A program made the translations under genes and the position numbers. 64,000 bases of DNA, from positions 186,001-250,000 of the forward strand of contig NZ_ML775961.1 of assembly GCF_009769385.1 (NCBI RefSeq), in the 5' to 3' direction. Numbering within the stretch: position 1 is the first letter of the stretch; every line of letters starts with the position of its first letter. The notes beneath the pieces were generated by a model. That model worked only from the letters and a program-made list of their open reading frames with translations, was not told where the DNA came from and ran no database searches. The stretch is from Saccharothrix deserti. Its GTDB lineage: Bacteria > Actinomycetota > Actinomycetes > Mycobacteriales > Pseudonocardiaceae. Below, in pieces: positions 10,787 to 24,867 of the stretch.

Positions 10787-10810
10787 CGACGTGGTGAAGG
10801 AGATGTGGTC

Positions 10811-12055
10811 GTGACGACTGCCGAGGTGACCTCGGTCTGGCGTAACCGGAACTTCCGACTGGTCTGGTCCGGACAGACGTTGTCCGAGTTCGGCAATGGC
10901 GTGTCCCAGCTCGCCTACCCGTTGCTCATGCTCGCGATCACCGGTTCGCCCACGGCCGCCGGCGCGCTCGCGGCCGTGCGCGCGTTGCCCTACCTGCTGT
11001 TCGGGTTGATCGCGGGCGCGCTGGTGGACCGGTGGAACCGCAAGCGGACGATGATCGTCTGCGACCTGCTGCGGGCGGTCAACATGGCGACGATCCCGGC
11101 GGCCCTGGTGGTCGGTGTGCTCACGCCCGCGCACGTGTTCGTGGCCGGCTTCGCAGGTGGCGTGCTGTACGTGTTCTTCAGCGCCGCCGAAGGCGCGTGC
11201 CTGCCGAACATCGTGCGCAAGGAGCAGTTGACGGCCGCGGTGTCCGCTCAGGAGACCGCTCAGTCAGCCTGCGGCGTGATCGCCGGTCCGGTCGGCGGTG
11301 CGCTGCTCCAGCTCTCCCGCGGCCTGCCGTTCCTGGTCGACGCGCTGTCCTTCCTCGCCTCGGCTCTGTGCCTGTCGTTCGTGCGCGGCGACTTCCGCAG
11401 CGAGGAGACCGAACCCGCGCAGCGGGGCTCGCTGCGCGCCGAGGTCTCCGAGGGCGTGCGCTGGCTGTGGAACCACACCGCGCTCAGGCTGATCGCGATC
11501 ACCGCGGCGGGGCTTCAGGTCGCGATCTCCGGCGTCGCGCTGGTGGCGATCGTCGTGGCGCGGGACTCGGGCGCGTCCTCCGCGGCGATCGGGGTGCTGT
11601 TCTCCGCGTTGGGTGTCGGCGGTGTCATCGGCGCTCTGTTGGCCCCGCGGCTCAAGAAGCGGCTCGGGCTCGGTGGTCTGCTGCTGTCGGTGCTCTGGTT
11701 GCAGGCCGCGCTGTGGGTGCTGATGGCGTTCTCGACCTCCCTGGTGATGATCGCGGTCGTGTTGGGGCTGTTCACGGTCTCCATGCCGTGCTTCGGCATC
11801 GCGGCGCTCAGCTTCCAGCTCGAGGTCACACCCGATGCGCTGCGCGGCCGGGTCGGCACCGCGTTCAGCCTGCTGATCTGGACGGCGACGCCGGTCGGCG
11901 CGGCCGCGGCGGGCGTGCTGCTGGACGTCGCCCTCCCGCGCACCGCGTCCTTGATCTTCGCGGCGTGGGTCGTGGCGCTCTCGGCGGTGGCGACCTGGAG
12001 CGGTGGCCTGCGCGGGCTCGACAAGTCCGATGTGGACGAAGAGGCCGTCGGATGA
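10811..12055 (+). CDS. MFS efflux transporter
   Basis: A 414-residue major facilitator with about twelve hydrophobic segments. An MFS loop signature follows the second helix (GALVDRWNRKRTMI), and the general sequence resembles DHA3-type drug exporters. GTG 10811 is chosen because AAGGAG at 10797-10802 lies eight bases upstream; the alternative GTG 10805 would be only two bases away. It follows the zinc-finger gene by 24 bases, so the two are probably co-transcribed. In an NRPS cluster the likely role is export of, and self-resistance to, the product; this is inference. Confidence 0.85.
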   Translation: MTTAEVTSVWRNRNFRLVWSGQTLSEFGNGVSQLAYPLLMLAITGSPTAAGALAAVRALPYLLFGLIAGALVDRWNRKRTMIVCDLLRAVNMATIPAALVVGVLTPAHVFVAGFAGGVLYVFFSAAEGACLPNIVRKEQLTAAVSAQETAQSACGVIAGPVGGALLQLSRGLPFLVDALSFLASALCLSFVRGDFRSEETEPAQRGSLRAEVSEGVRWLWNHTALRLIAITAAGLQVAISGVALVAIVVARDSGASSAAIGVLFSALGVGGVIGALLAPRLKKRLGLGGLLLSVLWLQAALWVLMAFSTSLVMIAVVLGLFTVSMPCFGIAALSFQLEVTPDALRGRVGTAFSLLIWTATPVGAAAAGVLLDVALPRTASLIFAAWVVALSAVATWSGGLRGLDKSDVDEEAVG

Positions 12056-12179
12056 CCCGACCCTGAACACTGTGTGTTGTGCGCCGTCGCGGCCCGTCGG
12101 TATACAGGTGACCGGTCGGCTGCGGCGGTGCCGCGGCCCGGGCTGTGACTTCGGTGTACAAGCACAGTTTGGGGGCTTC

Positions 12180-15100
12180 GTGTTCGTGCTGTCACCACAG
12201 CAAGAGCTCGTCTGGCTGCATCACCGGTTGGCGCCGGGCAGCTCCGCGTACAACTTCCTGGCGGTCACCGACTTCGTGGGCCCGTTGGACGTGGAGGCGC
12301 TCCGACGGGCCATCTCCCTGGTCGTCCGGCACCACCCCGCCATGCGCCTGGCGGTGGTGGACCCGGAGTCGGACCAGCCGCTCCAGCGACTGGTCGACCT
12401 ACCCGACGTGCCCATCGCCTCGGTCGATCTGGCAGGGGCCGCCGATGCGGAGGCGGAGTTCGGTCGCCTGGTGGCGACGTTCACCGACGAATCGTTCGAC
12501 CTCACCCGCGCACCGTTGGCGAAGTGGTGTGTGGTGCGGTTCTCCGCCGACCACCACCGACTGCTGCACGCCGAGGATCACCTGATCCACGACGGGCGCT
12601 CGTTCGCGGTGTTCCTCGCCGACATGTTCACCGCCTACCGGGAGCTGAGCGAGGGACGGGAGCCCGTGCTCGCTCCTGCTGTGACCTATGTGGAATACCT
12701 CGACCACTGCAAGTCACCGGCGTTCCGGGCCGGGGTGGAGGACCGGCTGGAGTGGTGGCGCACGAGCCTGGCGGGCGCGGACCTGGGCACGTTCGGCTTC
12801 CGCGGCCTCGGCCGGAGGGTGGGCACCCGGCGCGGGTTCGGCGGTGGTCAGGTGCGCCGCGAACTGCCCGCCGACCTGTGCGCGGATATCGACGCGTTGG
12901 CCCGCTCGGTCAGCAGCACGCCGTTCTCGCTGCTGTTCGGACTGTTCAGCGAACTCGTGCGCCGCCACGACGGGGCCGCTGAGGTCACCGTGGGCACCGC
13001 GGCGGCCAACCGGCCGAGCCGATTCGAGCGCACGGTGGGGATGCTGGTCAACAGCCTGCCGGTGCGACAGCGCTTCGAGCCCGGCTGGACGGCGCGACAG
13101 CTGGCCTCCGCGACCACGGACCGCCTGTTCGACGCGCTGGACCACGGTGACGCGCCGATGCAGGACATCGTGCGGGTTTGCGGACGCAGCTCCGGAACGC
13201 TGGACAACCCCTTGTTCCGCACGATGTTCAGCATGCACGACGCGCTGCTGCCCGACATCGAGCTGCCGGGGTTGGAGGTCTCCTTCGTCGAAGGGATCAA
13301 CCTCTCCACGTCGCGCACGGCCGACATCGACGTCGTCATCCTGCCGGGCACCAGGGCGCTGGGCGCGGAAGGCGGGACGATCACCTGTGTCTGGGACTAC
13401 TCCACGGAATTCTTCGACAAGGCGACCGTGAGCTTCCTGGCCGACCGGTTCCAGCGGCTGCTGGAAGCAGCGGTCGCCTCGCCGGACTCCCCGGTGGCGC
13501 AACTCGGTCTGATCGGCCCGCACGACCCGTCCGCGGTGCTCACCGGCGCCGACCGGCAGGTGCCGAGCCGGGCCGAGGTGCTCGACCACGTTCGCGCCCA
13601 CCGCGGTCCGGCGCTGGTCAACGGAACGCAGGAGCTGTCGTACCCGGAACTCGTCGGGCGCGCGGACACCCTGGCCGCCCGCCTCGCCCGCGCGGGCGTC
13701 GAGGAGGGCGAGATCGTCGCGGCGGTGCTGCCGCGCGGTGTCGCCGCGGTCGAGCTCCTGCTCGCCTGCCTCGTGGGCGGGTACGTGTTCGCACCGCTGC
13801 CGGTCGGGTGGACCGACAGTGCGGTGGCCGATGCCGTCGGGCGGCTCGACGCTGCGGTCGTGTTCACCGAACCCGGACGGCTGCGTGCCCTGCGCGCGGC
13901 CGGCGTGCCCGCGACGGTACTCGGCGACACGTCGCCGCGGCGGTCTACGACGGCGATCCGCCGTCACCCGGACGCCGCGTACCTCGTGCACACCTCGGGC
14001 TCCACCGGGCGGCCCAAGCGGGTGGTGGTGCCGTTCGCGGCGCTGGGCAACGCGATGGCCGGTGTGGCGGACTACCTGGGCATCGGGCCCGATGACCGGG
14101 TGTTGCAGTTCGCCCAGCCCGCGTTCGACGTGTTCTTCGAAGAGGTGGTGCCGAGCCTGGTCACCGGTGCCTGCCTGGTGCAACCCGGCACGGTGGTGCC
14201 CAGCGGGGAGGACCTCGCCGCGCTGATCGCCTACCGCGCGGTCACCGTGGTCAACCTGCCCACGAGCTACCTGTTCGCAGTGCTGGAGGAGCTGGGCGAG
14301 TGCCTGGCCGGGAGGTCACACCCGCTGCGCGTCGTCGTGGTCGGCGGTGAGCGGTTGCCGGCTGCCGGCGCGCGGGACATCGCCCGCACCCTGCCCGGTG
14401 CGGTCCTGGTGAACGCCTACGGCGTCACCGAGTCGACCATCACCTCGACCATGACGCGGTTCACCGGAGATGTCGCGGAGCACGAGGTCCCGCTGGGCGG
14501 CCCATTACCCAATGTGGTGCTGGTGGTCCTCGGTGAGGACGGAACGCCGCTGCCGGTGGGCATGGCGGGCGAGATCGCCATCGGCGGCCCGGGGTCGATC
14601 GCTTCCTATCTGGACGAACCGGACCGCGACTCGTACGCGGACGGGCTACCCGGCCACGCAGGTCGGTTCTACCGCACCGGGGACATCGGCGTGATAGGCC
14701 TCGACGGCAACCTCCGCTTCATCGGCCGCACTGACCGCCAGCTCAAGTTGCGCGGCTACCGGGTCGAGCCCGAGGAGATCGAGACCGCCGCCCGGCCGTT
14801 GGCCGACCACCGGGAGGTCGCGGTGGTCCCACACGTCGTGGACGGTGTGGTGGAAGGGCTGGTGGGCTACGTGGAAACGGCCGATCAGTCCGTCGCGGAC
14901 CGGCTGAACTCCGGCCTGCGCACCGTGCTGCCCAGGTACCTGGTCGTCGAGCGGTGGGTCGCCGCGCCCGCGCTGCCCCGCCTGCCCAACGGCAAGGTCG
15001 ACCTGGCCGAGCTGCGGACCTGGCCGCTGCCCGAACCGCGTCCGGCTCCGGCGGGGAGCGACGAGACCGGCCTGCTGGGCGTCGTGCTGGGCGGGTTCAG

Positions 15101-15320
15101 GTCCGTGCTGAAGCGGGATGTGGACGCCGACGCCGACTTCTTCGCGAGCGGCGGGCACTCGCTGCTGGTGGCGTCGCTGATCGCCTGGCTGCGTCGCGAG
15201 ACCGGGGTGCGGCTGCTCATGGGCGACGTCTTCGAGGCGCCTACCGCCCGTGCCGTCACAGAACGTCTGCGCGACGACCCAGATCTCATCCTGTCCACTG
15301 CCGGGGAGCGAGTGTCATGA
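12180..15320 (+). CDS. Nonribosomal peptide synthetase, C-A-PCP
   Basis: A 1046-residue single-module synthetase. The condensation domain at about 1-440 has the catalytic motif EDHLIHDGRS near residue 133: the first His of HHxxxDG is Asp, but the catalytic second His is kept. The adenylation domain at about 450-945 has HTSGSTGRPKR near 605, AYGVTEST and LPNGKVD. Its pocket reads roughly D-V-E-N-V-G-A-I-T-K by eye, close to that of the leftward synthetase; I do not assign a substrate. The PCP Ser is near 993 in FFASGGHSLLVA. GTG 12180 or GTG 12186 both follow GGGGG at 12171-12175; upstream in-frame sequence overlaps the MFS gene and has no NRPS character. Its stop overlaps the next PCP start (ATGA). 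Confidence 0.9.
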   Translation: MFVLSPQQELVWLHHRLAPGSSAYNFLAVTDFVGPLDVEALRRAISLVVRHHPAMRLAVVDPESDQPLQRLVDLPDVPIASVDLAGAADAEAEFGRLVATFTDESFDLTRAPLAKWCVVRFSADHHRLLHAEDHLIHDGRSFAVFLADMFTAYRELSEGREPVLAPAVTYVEYLDHCKSPAFRAGVEDRLEWWRTSLAGADLGTFGFRGLGRRVGTRRGFGGGQVRRELPADLCADIDALARSVSSTPFSLLFGLFSELVRRHDGAAEVTVGTAAANRPSRFERTVGMLVNSLPVRQRFEPGWTARQLASATTDRLFDALDHGDAPMQDIVRVCGRSSGTLDNPLFRTMFSMHDALLPDIELPGLEVSFVEGINLSTSRTADIDVVILPGTRALGAEGGTITCVWDYSTEFFDKATVSFLADRFQRLLEAAVASPDSPVAQLGLIGPHDPSAVLTGADRQVPSRAEVLDHVRAHRGPALVNGTQELSYPELVGRADTLAARLARAGVEEGEIVAAVLPRGVAAVELLLACLVGGYVFAPLPVGWTDSAVADAVGRLDAAVVFTEPGRLRALRAAGVPATVLGDTSPRRSTTAIRRHPDAAYLVHTSGSTGRPKRVVVPFAALGNAMAGVADYLGIGPDDRVLQFAQPAFDVFFEEVVPSLVTGACLVQPGTVVPSGEDLAALIAYRAVTVVNLPTSYLFAVLEELGECLAGRSHPLRVVVVGGERLPAAGARDIARTLPGAVLVNAYGVTESTITSTMTRFTGDVAEHEVPLGGPLPNVVLVVLGEDGTPLPVGMAGEIAIGGPGSIASYLDEPDRDSYADGLPGHAGRFYRTGDIGVIGLDGNLRFIGRTDRQLKLRGYRVEPEEIETAARPLADHREVAVVPHVVDGVVEGLVGYVETADQSVADRLNSGLRTVLPRYLVVERWVAAPALPRLPNGKVDLAELRTWPLPEPRPAPAGSDETGLLGVVLGGFRSVLKRDVDADADFFASGGHSLLVASLIAWLRRETGVRLLMGDVFEAPTARAVTERLRDDPDLILSTAGERVS

Positions 15321-15574: not shown

Positions 15575-16743
15575 GCGTCAGCCCGGTCGACCGCTATACC
15601 GTCGAGCACGCCCCGGTCCTGGAGTCCTTCCGGGCGTTCGTGCGTCGGGAGCTCGTGCCGTTGGCCCGCCAGAGCGGTGTGGTGGTGGGCGAGCCGGTCG
15701 GCTTCGACCTCCGCGAGTTCGTCCGCAGGCGCTCGGCCGAGGTCGGGTTCTACGCGGGCGACTACCCGGTGGAGGTGGGCGGGCAGTCCATGCCCTTCGC
15801 GGCGAAGGTGCTGCTGCACGAGTACGCCGAGAGCTGCGGGTGCCCGCTCGCCCCGTACGCGCTGTGCGGTCCGGCCGGACCGAGCGCGCTGCTCCTGCGC
15901 GCCACCGCGGAGCAGCGGGAGCGCTTCCTGCGCCCGCTGGTCGCGGGTGAGCTGACCCGGTGCCTGGCGCTGACCGAACCCGGCGGTGGGTCCGACCTCG
16001 CCGACCTGGAGACCGCGGCCGTGCCCGACGGCGGAGGCTGGCGGGTGCGTGGCCGCAAGTGCTTCGTCACGAACGCCCACGAGGCGGACCTGGTGCTCGT
16101 GATCGCCGCGCTGCCCGCCGACGACGGCACGAAGATCGCCGTGGTGTTCGCCGTGCCCGCCGGCACGCCTGGCCTGGTGGTGGAGAGCACCCGGCGCGGC
16201 CTCGGTGACGACCTGCTGTGCGAGGTGCTGCTCGACGACGTGCCGGTGGGGGAGGAGCACCTCCTCGGCGGGCGTGCGGCGATCGGCGCGCACCCCGGCT
16301 GGATCACCCGGTCGCTGGCCAGGGGGCGGCTGGTGATCGCGGCGAACTCCAACGGCGTGGCCGCGCGCGCCCTGGCGCTGGGTGTGGAGTTCGCCCGCGT
16401 CAAAGAGTCGTTCGGCGCACCGATCGGCAGCCGCCAGCACGTGCAGGAGCACGTGGTGGCGAGCCGGGTCGAGCTGGAGAGCGCCCGACTGCTGACCTTC
16501 GCCGCCGCCCAGGAGGTCGACGACGGCCACGACGCCGTCGTGCAGTCCTCACTGGCCAAGCTGGCGGCCGGCGAGGGCGCGTTCCGCACGGTCGACCGGA
16601 TGTTCCAGGTCCACGGAGCCGCAGCGTGGCTGCGAGGTCACCCGATGGAGTACCTGTACCGCCACGTCCGGGCGAATCGCCTGGTGGAGGGCACGTCGGA
16701 AGCCCAGAAGCTGATCCTCGCCGCCGCCGAAGGGATGGAGTGA
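15571..16743 (+). CDS. Acyl-CoA dehydrogenase-family flavoenzyme, probably acting on a carrier-bound aminoacyl group
   Basis: A 390-residue FAD enzyme of normal family length. The ACAD signature CLALTEPGGGSDLADL and the catalytic-base region LVEGTSEAQ (Glu near residue 373, as in the YEGT motif of acyl-CoA dehydrogenases) are present. The GTG start shares bases with the PCP stop. Placement between a discrete PCP and a discrete A domain suggests alpha,beta-desaturation or further oxidation of an aminoacyl-S-PCP rather than fatty acid breakdown. By analogy with PltE this is a known chemistry; here the A domain does not look proline-specific, so the substrate would differ. Confidence 0.85.
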   Translation: MSVSPVDRYTVEHAPVLESFRAFVRRELVPLARQSGVVVGEPVGFDLREFVRRRSAEVGFYAGDYPVEVGGQSMPFAAKVLLHEYAESCGCPLAPYALCGPAGPSALLLRATAEQRERFLRPLVAGELTRCLALTEPGGGSDLADLETAAVPDGGGWRVRGRKCFVTNAHEADLVLVIAALPADDGTKIAVVFAVPAGTPGLVVESTRRGLGDDLLCEVLLDDVPVGEEHLLGGRAAIGAHPGWITRSLARGRLVIAANSNGVAARALALGVEFARVKESFGAPIGSRQHVQEHVVASRVELESARLLTFAAAQEVDDGHDAVVQSSLAKLAAGEGAFRTVDRMFQVHGAAAWLRGHPMEYLYRHVRANRLVEGTSEAQKLILAAAEGME

Positions 16744-16744
16744 C

Positions 16745-18307
16745 ATGCGGTCCGCGGTGCACCCGCACGGAGTGCGGACGGACAGCCCGATCACCAGCAC
16801 GGTGCCGAGGCTGATCGCCCAGGTCGCCTTGGCCCGGCCCGACGCCGTCGCGCTGAGCTTCCCGGAGGAGGTCGTCACCTACCGCGAGCTGTGCCTGCGC
16901 GCGGGTCGGCTGGCCGAGCGCCTCGCAGAGCTGGGCGTGAGCCGCGGCGACGTCGTGGGCGTGCTCGACCACCAGTCCGCCCGCCAGGTCGTGACGCTCC
17001 TGGCCGTGCTCCAGGCGGGCGCGGCGTACCTGCCCCTGGACCCGGCCACGCCGCCCGCGCGCCAGCGCGTGATCGTCGACCAGGCCGGGGCGGTACTGGT
17101 GCTCACCGCCGGGGACCTGGCGGCCGACCCGGGCTGGGTCGACCTCGACGAGCTGACCGCGCGAGCGCTGCGGGCACCGGGGTGCGCGGAGGCCACCTGG
17201 CGGTACCCGGAGGGCAACGGCGAGGACCTCGCCTACGTCATGTACACGTCCGGCTCGACCGGGCGGCCCAAGGGGGTCATGGCGCCCCACCGCGCGATCA
17301 TCCACCTGGTGGTCGACACGGACTACCTGCGCCTCGGGTCGGACGATGTGGTCGCGTTCGCGTCCAACATCGCCTTCGACGCGGTCACCTTCGAGATCTG
17401 GGGTCCGCTGCTCAACGGGGCGGTCGTGCAGGGCCTGGACCGCGACTCGCTGCTTTCCACCTACTCCTTGGGCAACAGCCTGGCCGAACACCGCGTCACC
17501 GCCATGTTCATGACGACGGCGCTGTTCCACCTGCACGCCCGCCTCGCTCCCGCGGGCTTCGCGACGCTGCGCCGGCTGATGGTGGGCGGTGAGGTGATGA
17601 ACCCGGAGGCGGCGCTGGCGGTGCTCGCCGCGGGGCCGCCCCGGTGGCTGGTCAACATCTACGGCCCGACCGAGGCGACCACGTTCAGCACGGCTCACCG
17701 GATCCGCTCCCTTCCCCGGGACGCGACGAGCGTCCCGATCGGCCGGCCCATCGCCAACGCGTCGACGTGGGTGTTGGACGAGGACCTGCGGCCGGTGCCA
17801 CCGAGGGTGACGGGTGAACTGTTCATCGGCGGACCGGGTCTCGCGCACGGCTACCGCGGCCAGCCCGACCTGACCGCGGCGAAGTTCGTGCCCGACCCGA
17901 ACGGCACGGACACCCGGCTCTACCGCACCGGCGACTACGTGCGCTGGACTGACGACCACCTGCTCGACTTCGTGGGCAGGCGGGACGAGCAGATCAAGGT
18001 CCGGGGCTTCCGGATCGAGACACCCGAAGTCGAGGCCGCCCTCGCCGCGCTGCCCGCCGTGCGCGAGGCCGTCGTCGCGGTGCACGGCCGGGGCGAGGCG
18101 CGCAGCCTGGTCGCGTTCGTCGTGCCCAGCAGCCCGGGTGCCGCCGCGGGCGCCGCCCGTGACCTCGCGGTGGTCCTGCCACCGCAGATGATCCCGGCCC
18201 CGATCGTGGAAGTGCCGCGGTTCCCGTTGACCGCCAACGGCAAGGTCGACCGGGCCGCCCTGTTGTCCGCAGTGGACGAGATCCGCCCCGACGCAGTCGC
18301 GCGCTGA
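16745..18307 (+). CDS. Free-standing adenylation enzyme, pocket resembling Ile/Val activators
   Basis: A 520-residue amino acid-AMP ligase with YTSGSTGRPKGVM, NIYGPTEAT, YRTGDYVRW and LTANGKVDR, the full set of adenylation-domain core motifs. The substrate loop FDAVTFEIWGPLLNG is typical of branched-chain activators. The ten pocket residues read by eye are roughly D-A-F-F-M-G-I-T-F-K, which from memory differs at one position from a described isoleucine code. I predict Ile, allo-Ile or Val. It should load one of the two free PCPs. The ATG is one base after the dehydrogenase stop, so the genes are coupled. Confidence 0.88.
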   Translation: MRSAVHPHGVRTDSPITSTVPRLIAQVALARPDAVALSFPEEVVTYRELCLRAGRLAERLAELGVSRGDVVGVLDHQSARQVVTLLAVLQAGAAYLPLDPATPPARQRVIVDQAGAVLVLTAGDLAADPGWVDLDELTARALRAPGCAEATWRYPEGNGEDLAYVMYTSGSTGRPKGVMAPHRAIIHLVVDTDYLRLGSDDVVAFASNIAFDAVTFEIWGPLLNGAVVQGLDRDSLLSTYSLGNSLAEHRVTAMFMTTALFHLHARLAPAGFATLRRLMVGGEVMNPEAALAVLAAGPPRWLVNIYGPTEATTFSTAHRIRSLPRDATSVPIGRPIANASTWVLDEDLRPVPPRVTGELFIGGPGLAHGYRGQPDLTAAKFVPDPNGTDTRLYRTGDYVRWTDDHLLDFVGRRDEQIKVRGFRIETPEVEAALAALPAVREAVVAVHGRGEARSLVAFVVPSSPGAAAGAARDLAVVLPPQMIPAPIVEVPRFPLTANGKVDRAALLSAVDEIRPDAVAR

Positions 18308-19545: not shown

Positions 19546-20810
19546 GCGAGCCGAGCCTGTCCAGGCGGTACCGCGACCGCTTCACCGCCCTGACCGGCGG
19601 GGAACGCGCCTCGGCCGAAGGTCTGCTGCCGGCCACGAGTGCGCAACGCCGGTTCGTGCTCGGCGCGGAGAGCACCGGGCGGCGGATACTCGTGCCCTAC
19701 GCGTTCACCCTGCCCGCGGGCGCGCTGACCGTGGCCGGGCTTGCCGACCGGCTGGCCGCGCTGGTGTCCCGCCACGCGGCCCTGCGGTGCCGGGTCGACT
19801 ACGACGACACGGGCCTGGTCGTGCAACGAGAGCTGACCGACCCGACACCGCCCACGACCGTGGTCGCGGTCGCGGGTGCCCGGGAGGAGGCGGAGGCCGT
19901 CCGCCGGGTGCTCGCCGAGGCGCGCACGGCACCGGACGCCACGCCGATGCGGGTGGCGCTGTTGCGGGGCGCCGAGCAGGACCGGCTGGTGCTGGTGTTC
20001 GAGCACTCGGTGATGGACGAGATGTCGTTGCGGCTGGTCGCCGCGGACCTGTTCGCAGCGGAGCCCGCACCCCGGCCGCCCACCGACACGTGGCGGGAGT
20101 ACCGCGACGCGGTGTGGCAGTGGCTGGACTCGGAGGTCGAAGCGGCCACCGAGGACGCGGTCGGGTACTGGGTGGACCGACTCGCGCCGGTCGCCGGCGT
20201 CACCTCATCCGGCCCTGCCACACCGGATCCGGTCACCGCGGCTGTGGTGGACCCGGCTCCGGTGGAGCTACCCGGTCCGCGGGTCCGCGCCACCCTGTTC
20301 CCGCGCCTGCTCGCGGCGGCGCACCAGACGCTGCAAGCCGTCGAAGGCGGTGCCAGCTCGGTCATCTACCCCTGGGGCATGCGACCACCCGAACTCGTCG
20401 GGGTTGTCGGTTGCTTCATGAACACCGTGTTCAGCGGGGAAATGGGCGCGGCGTGGCGGTGGCAGGACTTCAGCCGGGCGTGCTGGCTTGACTTCGAGCA
20501 CGCTCACGTCCCGTTCGACGACGTGGTACTGGCGGTGAACCGCCGGACCCGCACCGGGTGGTCGGGCGAGGCCCGCTGCCTGCTGGGCCTCGAAGACCTC
20601 ACCACGCGGCCGGCGTTCGGCCCGACCGACCTGGTCGTCGACGAGTGGCTGCCGACCTGGCTCGTGCCGAAGTCGCCGGTCAACGCGACGGCCCGGTTCG
20701 ACGGGGCGGAACTGGTCCTGCGGGTGGTGGCGGACCCTGTCGCGTTCCCCTCGGCCGGGCTTTTCGCCGAGGTGTGGCGTGAGCGTGTGTCCCGACAACT
20801 GGCGCGCTGA
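19542..20810 (+). CDS. Free-standing condensation-domain protein
   Basis: About 422 residues, the size of one C domain. The active-site region reads FEHSVMDEMS near residue 154: the catalytic His of HHxxxDG is kept, the first His is Glu and the final Gly is Glu. A C-terminal lobe follows with GCFMNTVFSGEM and VPFDDVV in the expected places. The GTG start shares bases with the P450 stop. It likely moves the modified aminoacyl group from a free PCP to the main assembly line or onto a non-peptidyl acceptor. The altered motif makes activity probable but not certain. Confidence 0.78.
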   Translation: MSEPSLSRRYRDRFTALTGGERASAEGLLPATSAQRRFVLGAESTGRRILVPYAFTLPAGALTVAGLADRLAALVSRHAALRCRVDYDDTGLVVQRELTDPTPPTTVVAVAGAREEAEAVRRVLAEARTAPDATPMRVALLRGAEQDRLVLVFEHSVMDEMSLRLVAADLFAAEPAPRPPTDTWREYRDAVWQWLDSEVEAATEDAVGYWVDRLAPVAGVTSSGPATPDPVTAAVVDPAPVELPGPRVRATLFPRLLAAAHQTLQAVEGGASSVIYPWGMRPPELVGVVGCFMNTVFSGEMGAAWRWQDFSRACWLDFEHAHVPFDDVVLAVNRRTRTGWSGEARCLLGLEDLTTRPAFGPTDLVVDEWLPTWLVPKSPVNATARFDGAELVLRVVADPVAFPSAGLFAEVWRERVSRQLAR

Positions 20811-20826: not shown

Positions 20827-21060
20827 ATGTCCGCTGAGACGGAGGAGATCGTGTTGCGGGAGTGGACCCGCCAGCTCGGGGTCGACGAGGCCCGCGCCGA
20901 GGACGATTTCTTCGGCATGGGCGGCAACTCGTTGCAGGCCGCGGAGTTGATGGCGGCGCTGAGCCGCGAGTTCGGCACTCGGCTGCGGCTGGCCGTGCTG
21001 CTGCGCAACCCGGTGCTGGGCGATCTCGTCAAAGCCGTCGTCGACACCGTCCGGCGGTGA
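20827..21060 (+). CDS. Second free-standing peptidyl carrier protein
   Basis: A 77-residue carrier with the pantetheine Ser in DDFFGMGGNSLQAAELM. The ATG at 20827 follows a strong GAGGAGGAG site. A longer in-frame reading from 20779 would add N-terminal sequence of no domain character that overlaps the C-protein gene. The stop overlaps the GTG of the LanB-like gene, so the two are coupled. Two discrete PCPs in one operon suggest two carrier-bound intermediates or a hand-over between loading and tailoring. Confidence 0.9.
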   Translation: MSAETEEIVLREWTRQLGVDEARAEDDFFGMGGNSLQAAELMAALSREFGTRLRLAVLLRNPVLGDLVKAVVDTVRR

Positions 21061-23219
21061 CGGGCGTGCTGGTCGACCTGACCGACGAATGGCGGCTGGG
21101 CGACGTGGCCCTGGTCCGCTCGGCCGGCCTCGACGCTCGTGCGGCGCTGAGCTTCTCCAGTGGCACGGCGGCGGAGTTCCTCCCGGTCGAGGAGCTCGAC
21201 CGGGCCGCCGAGCGGTTGGCGGCCGACCCGTGGCTGCGCCACGCGCTGGCGTGGCAGAACCCCGCGGTGCTGGCGAACTGGGCTGCCGGTTACCGGGCCG
21301 GCGCGGCCACCGGGCGCAAGCGCGACCGGCGCATGATGGCGCTCGCCCGCTACGTGCAGCGGTACGCCACGAAGAACGACACCATCGACTTCTTCGGCCC
21401 CACCGGATGGGCCCGGCTCGACCAGACCTCGCCCGGCGTGGTGGTGAGCCAGGGGCGGGGTGAGATCGTGCGCCGGCACGCGCACTTCGAGGTCTGGGCG
21501 ATCGAAGCGCTGGCCCGTCGGTGGGAAACCGGGCTGCGGCCGCACCTGTGCCCGCTGCGGGACCCGTCCAGCCGGCTGGACGGCACGACCCTGCTCCGCC
21601 CCAGCGGTCTGACCACCGAGCTCACCCCGGAGCAGGCGGCGGTCTTGGGCCGGTGCGACGGCCGCACACCGGCTGTGCGCATCGCCGCCGTGCACGGCGA
21701 AGGAGCCCTGCGGGTCCTGGAAGACCTGCACGCCGCCGGCGTCGTCCGGTGGGGCTTCCACCTCCACTTCGACGAGGCGGTGGACGACCAGCTCGCCGAC
21801 CAGCTCGCGGCGCTGGCCCATCTGCCCGCCGCCCGAGACCACCTGGCGTTGCTGGACGAGCTGCGGGCCGGCCGGCGGGCCGTCGACGAGGCCGCGGACG
21901 CCGCGACGGCCTTGGCCCGCCTGCGTGATCGCTACCGGACCATCGCCGGCACCTCGGCCGTGTTGTCCAAGAAGGACAGTGCCGAGCAGCGCACGCTGCT
22001 GTGGAGCGACGCGCTCGCGGACTGGGACGTGGTGCTCGGCGCGGACGCCCTGGCCGGCCTGGCCGAGCCGCTGGGGCTGCTGCTCGACGCGTGCCGGTGG
22101 CTCACCTGGCGGATCGGTGAGCGGGTGCGCGGGCTGGTGGCGGAGTCGCTGGCGGAGACCCCGGACGGCGAGCTGTCGTTCGACATCGTGTTCGACGACC
22201 TGCGGACGGAGCTGACCGTCCAGCGGTCACCAGTGGTCGCCGAGGTCGTGCGCGAGCTCCAGGCCGTGGTCGCGGGGCTCGTCGACCCGGACCCGGCAGG
22301 CGGCCCGGTCCACCTGTCGGGGGAGCGGCTCGGCCCACGCTGGCGGAAGGCGTTCGCCGCGCCGCGCGCCGGGTGGGGCCTGGCCCGGGTGCACAGCGCG
22401 GACGTCATGCTGACCGCCGACCGGGGCTGGGTGCTCGGCGAACTGCACGTCGCGGTGAACCCGCTGGACGGCCGGTGGGCGACGCTCAACCAGCGCGACT
22501 TCGTCGACGTGGCCGCCCTGGTGGACCGAACGACGCCGGGGCCGCGCTTCCTGCCTGCGTTCCCCCGGAGCTGGGCCAGGATCAGCCCCCGCACACAGCC
22601 GGTGCGCGGCGTGCGCCTGCCCGACAAGGATCGGTACTGGACCTCGTGGCGCGACGACGTGCTGCCCGTCGACATGCCGCGTATCCGCGCGCTCGACCTG
22701 CGGGTGCGCCGGGAGGGTGAGGAGGTCGTCGTCATGGGAGAAGGTGTCCACGCCCCGATCCTCGAACTGCTCGGTGAGTTCCTGTCCATCGTCGCGGTCG
22801 ATGCGTTCCGGCCGTTCGGAGAGGCGCCGCACACCCCGAGGGTGAGCCTGGACCGCCTCGTCGTGCACCGGGAGACTTGGCGGTTCCGAGCTGGTGATCT
22901 GGTCACGCCGGACGTCCGCGCGCTGGCTGCGGCGTTGCGCGACCGAGGTGTACCGCTGCACTTCTTCCACCGGCTGCCCACCGAGCCCAAGCCGGTGTTC
23001 GGCGACCTCTCCGCCGAGCCGCTGATGCGTGACCTGCTCCGACTGCTGCGCGGGGCTGATCCGGACGCGGTTCTCGTCGTCCAAGAGATGTTGCCCGGGT
23101 TCGATGACCTCTGGCTGACCGGGGCGGATGGCACGATCCACACCGGCGAGTTCCGACTGGTTGCCCTGGACGGTCGGGTAGGAGCGGGGACATCGGTCGG
23201 AAAACAGGAATCCCGGTGA
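21057..23219 (+). CDS. Lantibiotic dehydratase-like protein (LanB N-terminal glutamylation domain only)
   Basis: A 720-residue protein resembling the N-terminal domain of LanB dehydratases, which use glutamyl-tRNA to glutamylate Ser/Thr before elimination. The segment RYATKNDTIDFFGPTGWARL near residues 100-120 matches a pattern I associate with actinobacterial proteins annotated as lantibiotic dehydratases. Full LanB proteins are about 1000 residues; the length here fits the split or peptide-aminoacyl-tRNA-ligase type without the elimination domain. No elimination partner and no precursor peptide is visible. It is the last gene of the rightward NRPS operon and its GTG start overlaps the second free PCP, so it may dehydrate or aminoacylate a carrier-bound or free intermediate. 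The activity is not provable from sequence. Confidence 0.68.
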   Translation: MTGVLVDLTDEWRLGDVALVRSAGLDARAALSFSSGTAAEFLPVEELDRAAERLAADPWLRHALAWQNPAVLANWAAGYRAGAATGRKRDRRMMALARYVQRYATKNDTIDFFGPTGWARLDQTSPGVVVSQGRGEIVRRHAHFEVWAIEALARRWETGLRPHLCPLRDPSSRLDGTTLLRPSGLTTELTPEQAAVLGRCDGRTPAVRIAAVHGEGALRVLEDLHAAGVVRWGFHLHFDEAVDDQLADQLAALAHLPAARDHLALLDELRAGRRAVDEAADAATALARLRDRYRTIAGTSAVLSKKDSAEQRTLLWSDALADWDVVLGADALAGLAEPLGLLLDACRWLTWRIGERVRGLVAESLAETPDGELSFDIVFDDLRTELTVQRSPVVAEVVRELQAVVAGLVDPDPAGGPVHLSGERLGPRWRKAFAAPRAGWGLARVHSADVMLTADRGWVLGELHVAVNPLDGRWATLNQRDFVDVAALVDRTTPGPRFLPAFPRSWARISPRTQPVRGVRLPDKDRYWTSWRDDVLPVDMPRIRALDLRVRREGEEVVVMGEGVHAPILELLGEFLSIVAVDAFRPFGEAPHTPRVSLDRLVVHRETWRFRAGDLVTPDVRALAAALRDRGVPLHFFHRLPTEPKPVFGDLSAEPLMRDLLRLLRGADPDAVLVVQEMLPGFDDLWLTGADGTIHTGEFRLVALDGRVGAGTSVGKQESR

Positions 23220-23220
23220 T

Positions 23221-23480
23221 GACGTCGAAGAACATCGTGCCCTCGATGTCGATGACCACCGGCTCGTCGCGGTCGTCGTCGACCAGGACGTGGTCGGGGC
23301 CCAGCTCGCCGTGGATCAGGCCGAACCGCGATCGTGGCACCACGGCGGCGTGCCGCGCCCGCAGCAGGTCGGCCAATCGGTCCCGCACGACTGCGATGCG
23401 GTCGACCCGGGCGGCGGACTGGGCGGGGTAGGCGAGCGCCGGGTCGGCCACGTGGGCGTGCATGTCCTGCCATGATCGCC
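23221..23480 (-). pseudogene. Fragment of an aminoglycoside phosphotransferase-family (APH) kinase gene
   Basis: On the minus strand this stretch encodes a convincing central piece of an APH/choline-kinase-type phosphotransferase, including FGLIHGELGPDHVLVDDD and PVVIDIEGTMFFDV. These cover the catalytic His-x-Glu/Asp loop and the metal-binding Asp. Similarity stops at 23221, two bases beyond the stop of the convergent LanB-like gene, and the N-lobe (about 150 residues) is missing because the next gene ends at 23576. Both ends are lost, so it is a remnant. It marks the border of the NRPS cluster and suggests that cluster gain or deletion cut this gene. Confidence 0.72.
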
Positions 23481-23575
23481 CACACCGCTCACCGGAGATA
23501 TCCGATTGTTGGGCCGTGCGGAACTCACCCACGAGGCCTTCGACACCAACGGCACGGCGATCCCGGGCCCGTTGG

Positions 23576-24370
23576 TCACGGCAGGATCGAGTCGACGTAA
23601 CCCCCGTCCACCCGCACCGCCGCCCCGGTCGTCGCCGACGCCTGCGGTGACGCCAGGTACACCACCAGGTTGCCGATCTCCTCCGGCTCGATCAGCCGCC
23701 CCAGCAGGGACTGCGGCCGGTGCACGCGCATGAACTCCCGCTGCGCCTCCTCCCACGGCAGCGAACGGTCCACCAGTTGGTAGACGAAGTCCTCCACCCC
23801 ACCGGTGTGCGTCGGCCCCGCGATCACGCAGTTCACCGTCACACCGCTGCCCGTCGCTTCCTTCGCGAACCCGCGCGACACGGCCAGCAGCGCCGTCTTC
23901 GACATCCCGTAGTGGATCATCTCCGCCGGGATCACCACGGCCGAGTCGCTGGCGATGTACTGCACGCGCCCCCACCCGCGCTCCCGCATCCCCGGCAGGT
24001 AGGTGCGCGTCAGTCGAACGGCCGACAGCACGTTCACCTCGAAGTACCGCCGCCACTCGTCGTCGCTGATCTCCAACGCCGGCCGCGCCCCGAAGATGCC
24101 GACGTTGTTCACCAGCACGTCCACCTCGGGCAGCACCGAGACCAGCGCGGCGGCGCCGGAATCCGTCGACACGTCCGCCGGCACGCCGACCACGTTCGCC
24201 CCCGGCACCTGCTCACGCAGCCGCGCCACCGCCTCGTGGACCGCCTCGGCCTTGCGCCCGTTCACCGCGGTCCGCGCACCGGCCCGCGCCAACGCCACCG
24301 CGATCGCCTCGCCGATACCCTGCGTCGAACCGGTGACCAGCGCCGTCTTCCCGCTCAGATCCAGGTGCAT
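23576..24370 (-). CDS. Short-chain dehydrogenase/reductase (SDR)
   Basis: A 264-residue classical SDR. The NAD(P) motif TGSTQGIG is near residue 14, followed by NNVGIFG, the catalytic Ser in YIASDSA, and the Tyr-Lys pair in YGMSK. A C-terminal PEEIGNLVVYLAS segment and GGYVDSILP complete the family pattern. ATG 24370 gives the standard length; the frame stays open far upstream without SDR character. The substrate cannot be told; it resembles the many 3-oxoacyl-reductase-like SDRs of actinomycetes. It stands alone with 160 bases before the DUF6204 gene. Confidence 0.88.
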   Translation of the reverse strand: MHLDLSGKTALVTGSTQGIGEAIAVALARAGARTAVNGRKAEAVHEAVARLREQVPGANVVGVPADVSTDSGAAALVSVLPEVDVLVNNVGIFGARPALEISDDEWRRYFEVNVLSAVRLTRTYLPGMRERGWGRVQYIASDSAVVIPAEMIHYGMSKTALLAVSRGFAKEATGSGVTVNCVIAGPTHTGGVEDFVYQLVDRSLPWEEAQREFMRVHRPQSLLGRLIEPEEIGNLVVYLASPQASATTGAAVRVDGGYVDSILP

Positions 24371-24531: not shown

Positions 24532-24867
24532 CTAACCGGCCCGCTTCGGACGTCGCACCTTGATCAGGTCCATATCGGTCGCCGACGCACGCATGTCGCG
24601 GAAGTCCACGCCGAACTCCTCGACCGCTCGGGCGGCCAGGGCGAGGGCCCGGTCGCACACCGCCCGATCGGTCGCCGCGACCTCGGCGCGCAACACCACG
24701 CGGAAGCTGAAGAAGTCCAGCGACCGGTCGTAGGACAGCGCGCCGTCCTCGGAGAAGCCGTTGTCGAGCACACCGTGCCGGTCGACGGCGGCCAGCAGTC
24801 GGGCGCGGCCGACGTCGTCGAGGTCGGTGAACCGGCCCCGCACCATGACCCGGTAGGTGTGCTCCAT
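24532..24867 (-). CDS. DUF6204-like small protein
   Basis: A 111-residue protein of unknown function. The start (MEHTYRVMVRGRFTDL), a middle SYDRSLDFFSFRVVL and the overall length fit the actinobacterial DUF6204 family as I remember it. No catalytic motif, signal peptide or membrane segment is visible. It is a single gene between the SDR and the divergent VOC gene; the 181 bases to 25049 should carry both promoters. The family assignment is from recognition, not a search. Confidence 0.65.
   Translation of the reverse strand: MEHTYRVMVRGRFTDLDDVGRARLLAAVDRHGVLDNGFSEDGALSYDRSLDFFSFRVVLRAEVAATDRAVCDRALALAARAVEEFGVDFRDMRASATDMDLIKVRRPKRAG

Follow-up and report, generated by a model that had tools for sequence, protein, structure and literature searches.

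A putative peptide aminoacyl-tRNA ligase at the end of a probable ureido-type non-ribosomal peptide synthetase operon in Saccharothrix deserti

Peptide aminoacyl-tRNA ligases (PEARLs) are ATP- and aminoacyl-tRNA-dependent amide ligases. We describe a predicted member of this class, encoded at 21057-23219 on the plus strand of a 64,000-nucleotide stretch of the Saccharothrix deserti genome (contig NZ_ML775961.1, positions 186,001 to 250,000; hereafter the window), at the end of a non-ribosomal peptide synthetase (NRPS) operon. The closest described system is the threopeptin (sna) cluster of Stackebrandtia nassauensis, whose PEARL, SnaE, is reported to extend the carboxylate that is freed when a ureido-forming condensation (C) domain, Curea, reverses the chain (PMC11212132). 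The signature of such domains is EHHXXHDG, and in the examples of the same authors the full signature was sufficient and necessary (PMC11212132). According to two further reports, Tyr205, Arg208 and Arg429 of BhaBC-Trp are modelled at the 3′-CCA end of the tRNA, the PEARL ATP site includes Asp558, Glu575-x-His577 and Glu813-x-Arg815, and TbtB uses glutamyl-tRNA and no ATP (PMC11962472, PMC12945691).

An initial annotation, made from the sequence, had described the product as a LanB-like protein with the length of an N-terminal domain and lacking an elimination domain, encoded by the last gene of an NRPS operon and overlapping the gene for a free peptidyl carrier protein (PCP), and this description was borne out at each point. 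The reading frame is open throughout and encodes 720 amino acids that match Pfam PF04738 (Lant_dehydr_N) at 53.7 bits (cut-off 28; E 1.4e-14); the Pfam scan reported no PF14028 elimination domain in the protein or on its contig (C6), and placed that domain on contigs C71 and C11 only. The start codon shares a 4-base overlap, GTGA (21057-21060), with the stop of the preceding PCP gene, which has a clear PP-binding match, and the gene ends a plus-strand run in the order C-A-T, acyl-CoA dehydrogenase-like enzyme (ACAD), A, P450, C-like, T and LanB-like (A, adenylation domain; T, carrier domain; Table 1). A profile of 40 sequences of the family matches PDB entry 6ec7, a lantibiotic dehydratase domain protein, at E 2.6e-14, mainly at profile positions 581-684, as well as the canonical LanB of the same genome (E 4.5e-10 across 628 columns) and a second LanB-like protein of that genome (E 1.5e-9). 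We take 6ec7 to be TbtB. A phmmer search of the PDB sequences with the single window protein gave no matches up to E 1, and NCBIfam and PHROGs scans assigned it to no family. Its homology, at the sequence level, with the N-terminal, tRNA-using domain of lantibiotic dehydratases is confirmed.

By sequence, the protein is classed as a PEARL rather than a dehydratase, because it keeps the PEARL ATP-site residues and because PF14028 is found only on other contigs. Counterparts of the published residues were assigned from spacing, motif and position rather than from an alignment with BhaBC or TglB: Tyr205, Arg208 and Arg429 have theirs in Y99, R102 and R312, the last being the least certain, and Asp558, Glu575-x-His577 and Glu813-x-Arg815 in D449, E462-x-H464 and E698-x-R700. 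Arg197, placed by spacing at R91, is also kept. Of 397 genomes sampled from the order, 61 have a match at E 1e-8 or better. In a contig search, 426 of 481 candidate stretches encode a relative, and the best 80 of the 426, representing 78 distinct loci, were used; the closest relative among these 80, from Virgisporangium aurantiacum (L111), is 41% identical. Annotation with iterated window-derived profiles covered 60 stretches, 57 of them from other genomes, a further three stretches of the same genome, the window and the 78 loci. Once identical proteins had been collapsed, this gave 181 PEARL-like proteins distributed over 128 loci. All 181, the window protein included, keep R102, R312, D449 and H464, although R102 lies within the search pattern used to find the 78 loci; E698 and R700 are present in 180, E462 in 178 and Y99 in 176. 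Column 645 holds lysine in 131 proteins and arginine in 50, and R21 belongs to a W...LR..G motif that a regular expression finds in 151. In a loose alignment, the positions of D449, E462, H464, K645 and E698 are occupied in the canonical LanB of the genome by a gap, A, P, L and V, respectively; the other LanB-like protein departs at the first three (G, R and Y) and keeps the last two.

The initial annotation had also raised glutamylation and dehydration of a carrier-bound residue. A LanB domain confined to glutamylation, which would activate a carrier-bound Ser/Thr or beta-hydroxy residue for elimination, would agree with the PF04738 homology and with the profile match to 6ec7, but the ATP-site residues (D449, E462-x-H464, K645, E698-x-R700) are present and conserved, and contig C6 offers no PF14028 partner. 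We give this scheme hardly any credence, and it was rejected.

The operon can be read more specifically than at first, in that its C-A-T gene bears what its relatedness marks as a ureido-type C domain. We placed 182 of 196 C domains in a tree from which the eight motif columns had been removed, the window domain being represented by its identical copy in L043. It pairs with the C domain of a locus from Streptomyces sp. CB02923 (L163; motif EHHLIHDG) with support of 0.999, and the pair then joins four further EHHxxHDG domains (support 0.987), making a Curea-type domain in the window operon likely. The Streptomyces locus contains, in a single run, P450, Curea-A-T, ACAD, A-T and PEARL genes, and so shares with the window the P450, Curea-A-T, ACAD, A, T and PEARL kinds; it differs in its fused A and T, its full EHHLIHDG motif and its lack of the extra C-like domain. 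Identity between the two loci is 38% for C-A-T, 44% for ACAD and 32% over 466 residues for the PEARL, and the C-A-T codes are DVE?VGAVT there and DVE?VGAIT in the window, the question mark standing for code position 278, whose reading was wrong when judged against the codes expected for Ser, Thr, Gly and Asn. Two other relatives of the C-A-T protein, in L250 (47% identical) and L252 (41%), have the full EHHXXHDG signature and an accompanying ACAD gene, whose products are 58% and 49% identical, respectively, to that of the window. L252, with Curea-A-T, ACAD, A-T, ketosynthase-acyltransferase-T (KS-AT-T), MFS and thioesterase genes, is close to the sna cluster as described, KS-AT-T and thioesterase being present in both. 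The L250 cluster adjoins genes for a pyrimidine phosphorylase-like protein, a class III aminotransferase and a TauD protein, and perhaps makes a nucleoside ureido peptide.

On the grounds of the C-domain grouping, the likeness to L163, L250 and L252 and the SnaE precedent, we take the operon to be a candidate ureido-peptide line with a SnaE-type ligase, which would join the amino acid of an aminoacyl-tRNA to the carboxylate freed by ureido chain reversal; we put the probability of this at about 0.7. The stand-alone A domain would load one amino acid onto the discrete PCP. In the C-A-T protein, the T domain would carry a second amino acid, probably a basic one, and the ureido-type C domain would couple the two head to head, leaving the carboxylate of the first residue free. 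The PEARL would then use ATP to convert this carboxylate into an acyl phosphate, which would be attacked by the amine of an aminoacyl-tRNA, and the tRNA would subsequently be hydrolysed off, so that the chain would grow opposite to the NRPS direction. The discrete PCP may serve the loading A domain only or may present the acceptor as well. The basic specificity is suggested by Glu at code position 239 of the C-A-T domain, and the code of the stand-alone A domain, DAF?MGITF, is presumably of the aliphatic type. Homology, conserved residues, gene context and C-domain grouping are observed directly, and the use of ATP and tRNA, a ureido product and the acceptor are likely by analogy with SnaE and with the PEARLs that act on ribosomally synthesized and post-translationally modified peptides (RiPPs). 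The option in the initial annotation by which an NRPS product would receive an amino acid carried by tRNA is supported by residues, context and the published SnaE.

A number of observations weigh against this proposal. The window motif, EDHLIHDG, misses the exact EHHXXHDG signature, its first His being replaced by Asp. Three of the four additional domains in the 0.987 group (L101, L108 and L110) had been picked by the EHHxxHDG motif, and two other such domains, from L137 and L162, are placed outside this group, the common ancestor of all eight subtending 94 tips with support of 0.342. A whole-genome pattern search for the exact Curea motif found no match in the S. deserti genome, and in the 61 PEARL-containing genomes the match nearest to a PEARL lies about 44 kb away (G145), followed by one at 84 kb (G290). 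Only 5 of 99 loci with C domains have a Curea-type motif (the window, in altered form, L137, L141, L162 and L163), although this scarcity is weak evidence of absence because the loci other than the window extend over no more than 20-22 kb. Neither L250 nor L252, which combine Curea-A-T and ACAD, has a PEARL within the 32 kb read of each, and a search of L163 with the window P450 gave no match at E 1e-8. In the protein itself, the counterpart of Gln201, which belongs to the 3′-CCA set of BhaBC-Trp, is A95 and is not conserved; R90, R303, R321, R404 and W405, all common in the family, are absent; and K645 and E698 alone are no mark of a PEARL, since the second LanB-like protein of the genome keeps both. 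Finally, the window PEARL sits beside that of L111, in a clade to which none of the PEARLs from the other four Curea loci belongs.

The last point bears on a different acceptor. The window PEARL and that of L111 pair with support of 1.0 inside a 16-member clade (support 0.999), in which eight loci have an A domain with Arg at code position 239 (R239) and 13 of 16 members have a T domain no more than 450 bases upstream of the PEARL; the 22 kb read of L111 itself contains an R239 A domain but lacks a Curea motif. These relationships, together with the inexact motif of the window C domain, would suit a PEARL whose substrate is a carrier-bound building block, dicarboxylic or otherwise acidic, that is extended at its second carboxylate, as we propose for the R239 loci of the clade. 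Neither A domain of the window operon has an R239 code, however, and the C domain groups with Curea domains and the similar gene set of L163 comes with a full EHHLIHDG motif, so we regard this acceptor as unlikely.

The donor may also be questioned. The SnaE paper infers the use of tRNA from homology (PMC11212132), the PCP gene overlaps the PEARL gene in the window, and a T domain lies no more than 450 bases upstream of the PEARL in 52 of 181 cases; a separate count of discrete T domains (8 loci) was not relied on, as stop-to-stop segments miss some of them, including that of the window. One could accordingly picture the A domain, the PCP and the PEARL as a tRNA-independent amide ligase, in which the stand-alone A domain charges the discrete PCP and the PCP acts as donor to the ATP-activated acceptor. 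The 3′-CCA counterparts R102 and R312, kept throughout the family with the reservation already given for R102, argue against it, as does the report that SnaE adds Thr although the two A domains described for its cluster are both Arg-loading (PMC11212132); we retain such a donor only as a quite improbable candidate. Transfer from aminoacyl-tRNA to the carboxylate released by ureido reversal remains our preferred reading.

The NRPS context recurs across the family: A or C domains of NRPSs occur in 118 of the 128 loci, and the number rises to 121 when T domains are counted as well. Homologues consistently accompanied by a RiPP precursor, a pattern that the initial annotation had named as contrary to its view, were not seen in these loci, in which no systematic precursor search was made. 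Its remark that no precursor or other RiPP gene is visible in the window held for the listed open reading frames (ORFs), among which none was recognised, and is limited by the downstream scan having covered only two ORFs (23319-24056 and 24535-24867), so that a short precursor may still exist. A hidden RiPP cluster was rejected as an explanation, as no precursor or RiPP maturation gene was recognised among the listed ORFs nearby and NRPS domains prevail among the loci.

A domains with a basic residue at code position 239 are frequent beside PEARLs. Arg or Lys occupies this position in an A domain of 39 of the 108 loci with a full A domain or, counted by domain with duplicates included, in 41 of 237, compared with 0 of 95 A domains in a control of 20 NRPS stretches from seven PEARL-free genomes of the window's family (4 of 99 were excluded for lacking Asp as the first letter of the code) and 0 of 27 in a first, smaller control; these association figures ignore kinship among loci. 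Loci with such domains include L111, L117, L113, L044, L090, L060, L123, L049, L131, L175 and those of the L148 type, and the domains fall into two sets, one with the motif GHDPxLRD and the other with YDASIRD or similar. Scored with TIGR03443 (alpha-aminoadipate) versus the generic A model, L175 gives 451 versus 366 bits, L117 220 versus 258, L111 101 versus 198, L123 100 versus 209 and the YDASIRD domain of L148 90 versus 361, and the two window A domains give 158 versus 400 and 82 versus 277; on these scores, L175 and L117 clearly resemble aminoadipate domains, and the others do so weakly. The GHDPxLRD pattern has 12 matches in 11 of the 397 genomes, five within about 10 kb of a PEARL, one 44 kb away and six not near a PEARL. 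If R239 domains activate the side chain of an acidic substrate, the alpha carboxylate could be left for the PEARL, and their frequency beside PEARLs suggests a second source of free carboxylate. In L148, a PLP-dependent enzyme (PF00291; 8632-9675) is encoded between the A domain and a discrete T-PEARL pair, and possibly makes the acidic building block.

A broader generalization, which we offer tentatively and would not yet bet on, is that PEARLs form a general add-on to assembly lines, extending unactivated carboxylates of NRPS or polyketide synthase (PKS) products with an amino acid from tRNA, with a carrier, sometimes discrete, often in the role of the scaffold peptide, and with at least two carboxylate sources, namely ureido reversal (the window and SnaE) and A domains that activate a side-chain carboxylate in the manner of alpha-aminoadipate domains (R239, GHDPxLRD). 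If so, NRPS products of PEARL loci would need to be predicted in both directions, and PEARLs could serve as a tool for adding amino acids to the free carboxylates of non-ribosomal products.

Table 1. Features of the operon on the window (positions count from the first base of the window)
Feature	Position	Strand	Basis
MFS transporter, probably first gene of the operon	10805..12055	+	PF05977/PF07690
NRPS module C-A-T, putative ureido-type C, A code DVE?VGAIT	12171..15320	+	Pfam, C-domain tree, codes
C-domain active-site motif EDHLIHDG (Curea consensus EHHXXHDG)	12573..12596	+	
Acyl-CoA dehydrogenase-like enzyme (ACAD)	15580..16743	+	PF00441, PF02770, PF02771
Stand-alone adenylation domain, code DAF?MGITF	16745..18307	+	Pfam, code
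Cytochrome P450	18322..19545	+	PF00067
Stand-alone divergent condensation-like domain, motif FEHSVMDE, start codon provisional	19614..20810	+	PF00668
Discrete PCP, GGNSL serine present	20827..21060	+	PF00550 (PP-binding E 1.9e-15)
PEARL-type amide ligase (predicted)	21057..23219	+	PF04738; residues R21, Y99, R102, R312, D449, E462, H464, K645, E698, R700

Some boundaries in Table 1 deserve comment. The mechanical ORF of the C-A-T gene is open from 12003, and that of the ACAD gene from 15250, with its domain beginning at about 15580 and its start codon provisional. For the PCP gene, the probable start is the ATG at 20827, which is preceded by the ribosome-binding site AGGAGGAG and gives a product of 77 amino acids. 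The C-like domain scores 34.6 bits with PF00668 (cut-off 30.6) and might act as an interface domain for the P450; L250 has a similar domain (35% identical, motif FDHAVVDE), likewise followed by a T domain. The window C-like domain also clusters, with support of 0.83, with C domains of the PEARL loci L059, L118 and L128, and in L059 and L118 the domain in question sits directly upstream of the PEARL. On the 3′ side of the PEARL gene are ORFs for a short-chain dehydrogenase/reductase and a DUF6204 protein on the minus strand and for a ceramidase on the plus strand; to the left of the operon, a further NRPS operon lies on the opposite strand and is followed by PKS genes. A DNA search of plasmids with the operon returned five records with short matches over 0-1% of the query, and a protein search of plasmids returned 14 records, 30-45% identical and labelled lantibiotic dehydratase where annotated; PDB searches with two A domains gave general A-domain matches only.

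PEARL genes occur in several other arrangements. The same genome encodes a second PEARL (G000:C6:114960-117035, minus strand, in L003:14916-19970), which forms the C-terminal part of an NRPS fusion protein, (C)-A-T-PEARL, with more C-A-T modules coming after it. Loci of the L051 type (genus g38; the named ones mostly Micromonospora) are a recurrent cluster with two tandem PEARL genes, and in L051 the first PEARL is fused to a thioesterase and located between an A-T-KS protein and an A-T-C-T protein. L087 and L085 have four and two PEARL-like genes, respectively, with one or no NRPS domain found, and are perhaps scaffold-peptide (pearlin) clusters.

Comparison with described systems starts from SnaE. 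The initial annotation had suggested that the gene might join tRNA-dependent chemistry to an assembly line; any claim of novelty in this has to be given up: SnaE had appeared in a preprint of December 2023 and a paper of 2024 (PMC11212132), so that the window enzyme would be a further example and not new chemistry. In the open-licence literature we found no PEARL in an NRPS cluster beyond SnaE (paper and preprint), which is no proof of absence. Compared by description, both clusters encode a LanB-like ligase that bears a lantibiotic dehydratase annotation, together with a ureido-type C domain, an ACAD-like enzyme (SnaO carries the same annotation) and a transporter, and no precursor peptide was identified in either, the scan of the window being limited to a few ORFs. 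In contrast to sna as there described, the window has separate genes for the loading A and T domains, a P450, an extra stand-alone C-like domain and the EDHLIHDG motif, and its operon lacks KS-AT-T, the PKS genes coming after those of the divergent neighbouring NRPS. The finding ties an observation on raw sequence to a recently described enzyme class, and adds to it a probable ureido-type cluster with an altered Curea motif and with separate A and PCP genes in place of a single loading module. The split LanB glutamylation domain 6ec7 is homologous to the window protein by profile. For the RiPP PEARLs TglB, BhaBC-Trp and AmmB, the reported ATP-site residues have window counterparts by motif, as do Tyr205, Arg208 and Arg429 of the 3′-CCA set but not Gln201; these enzymes act on ribosomal scaffold peptides, whereas the window offers an NRPS and a carrier protein instead.

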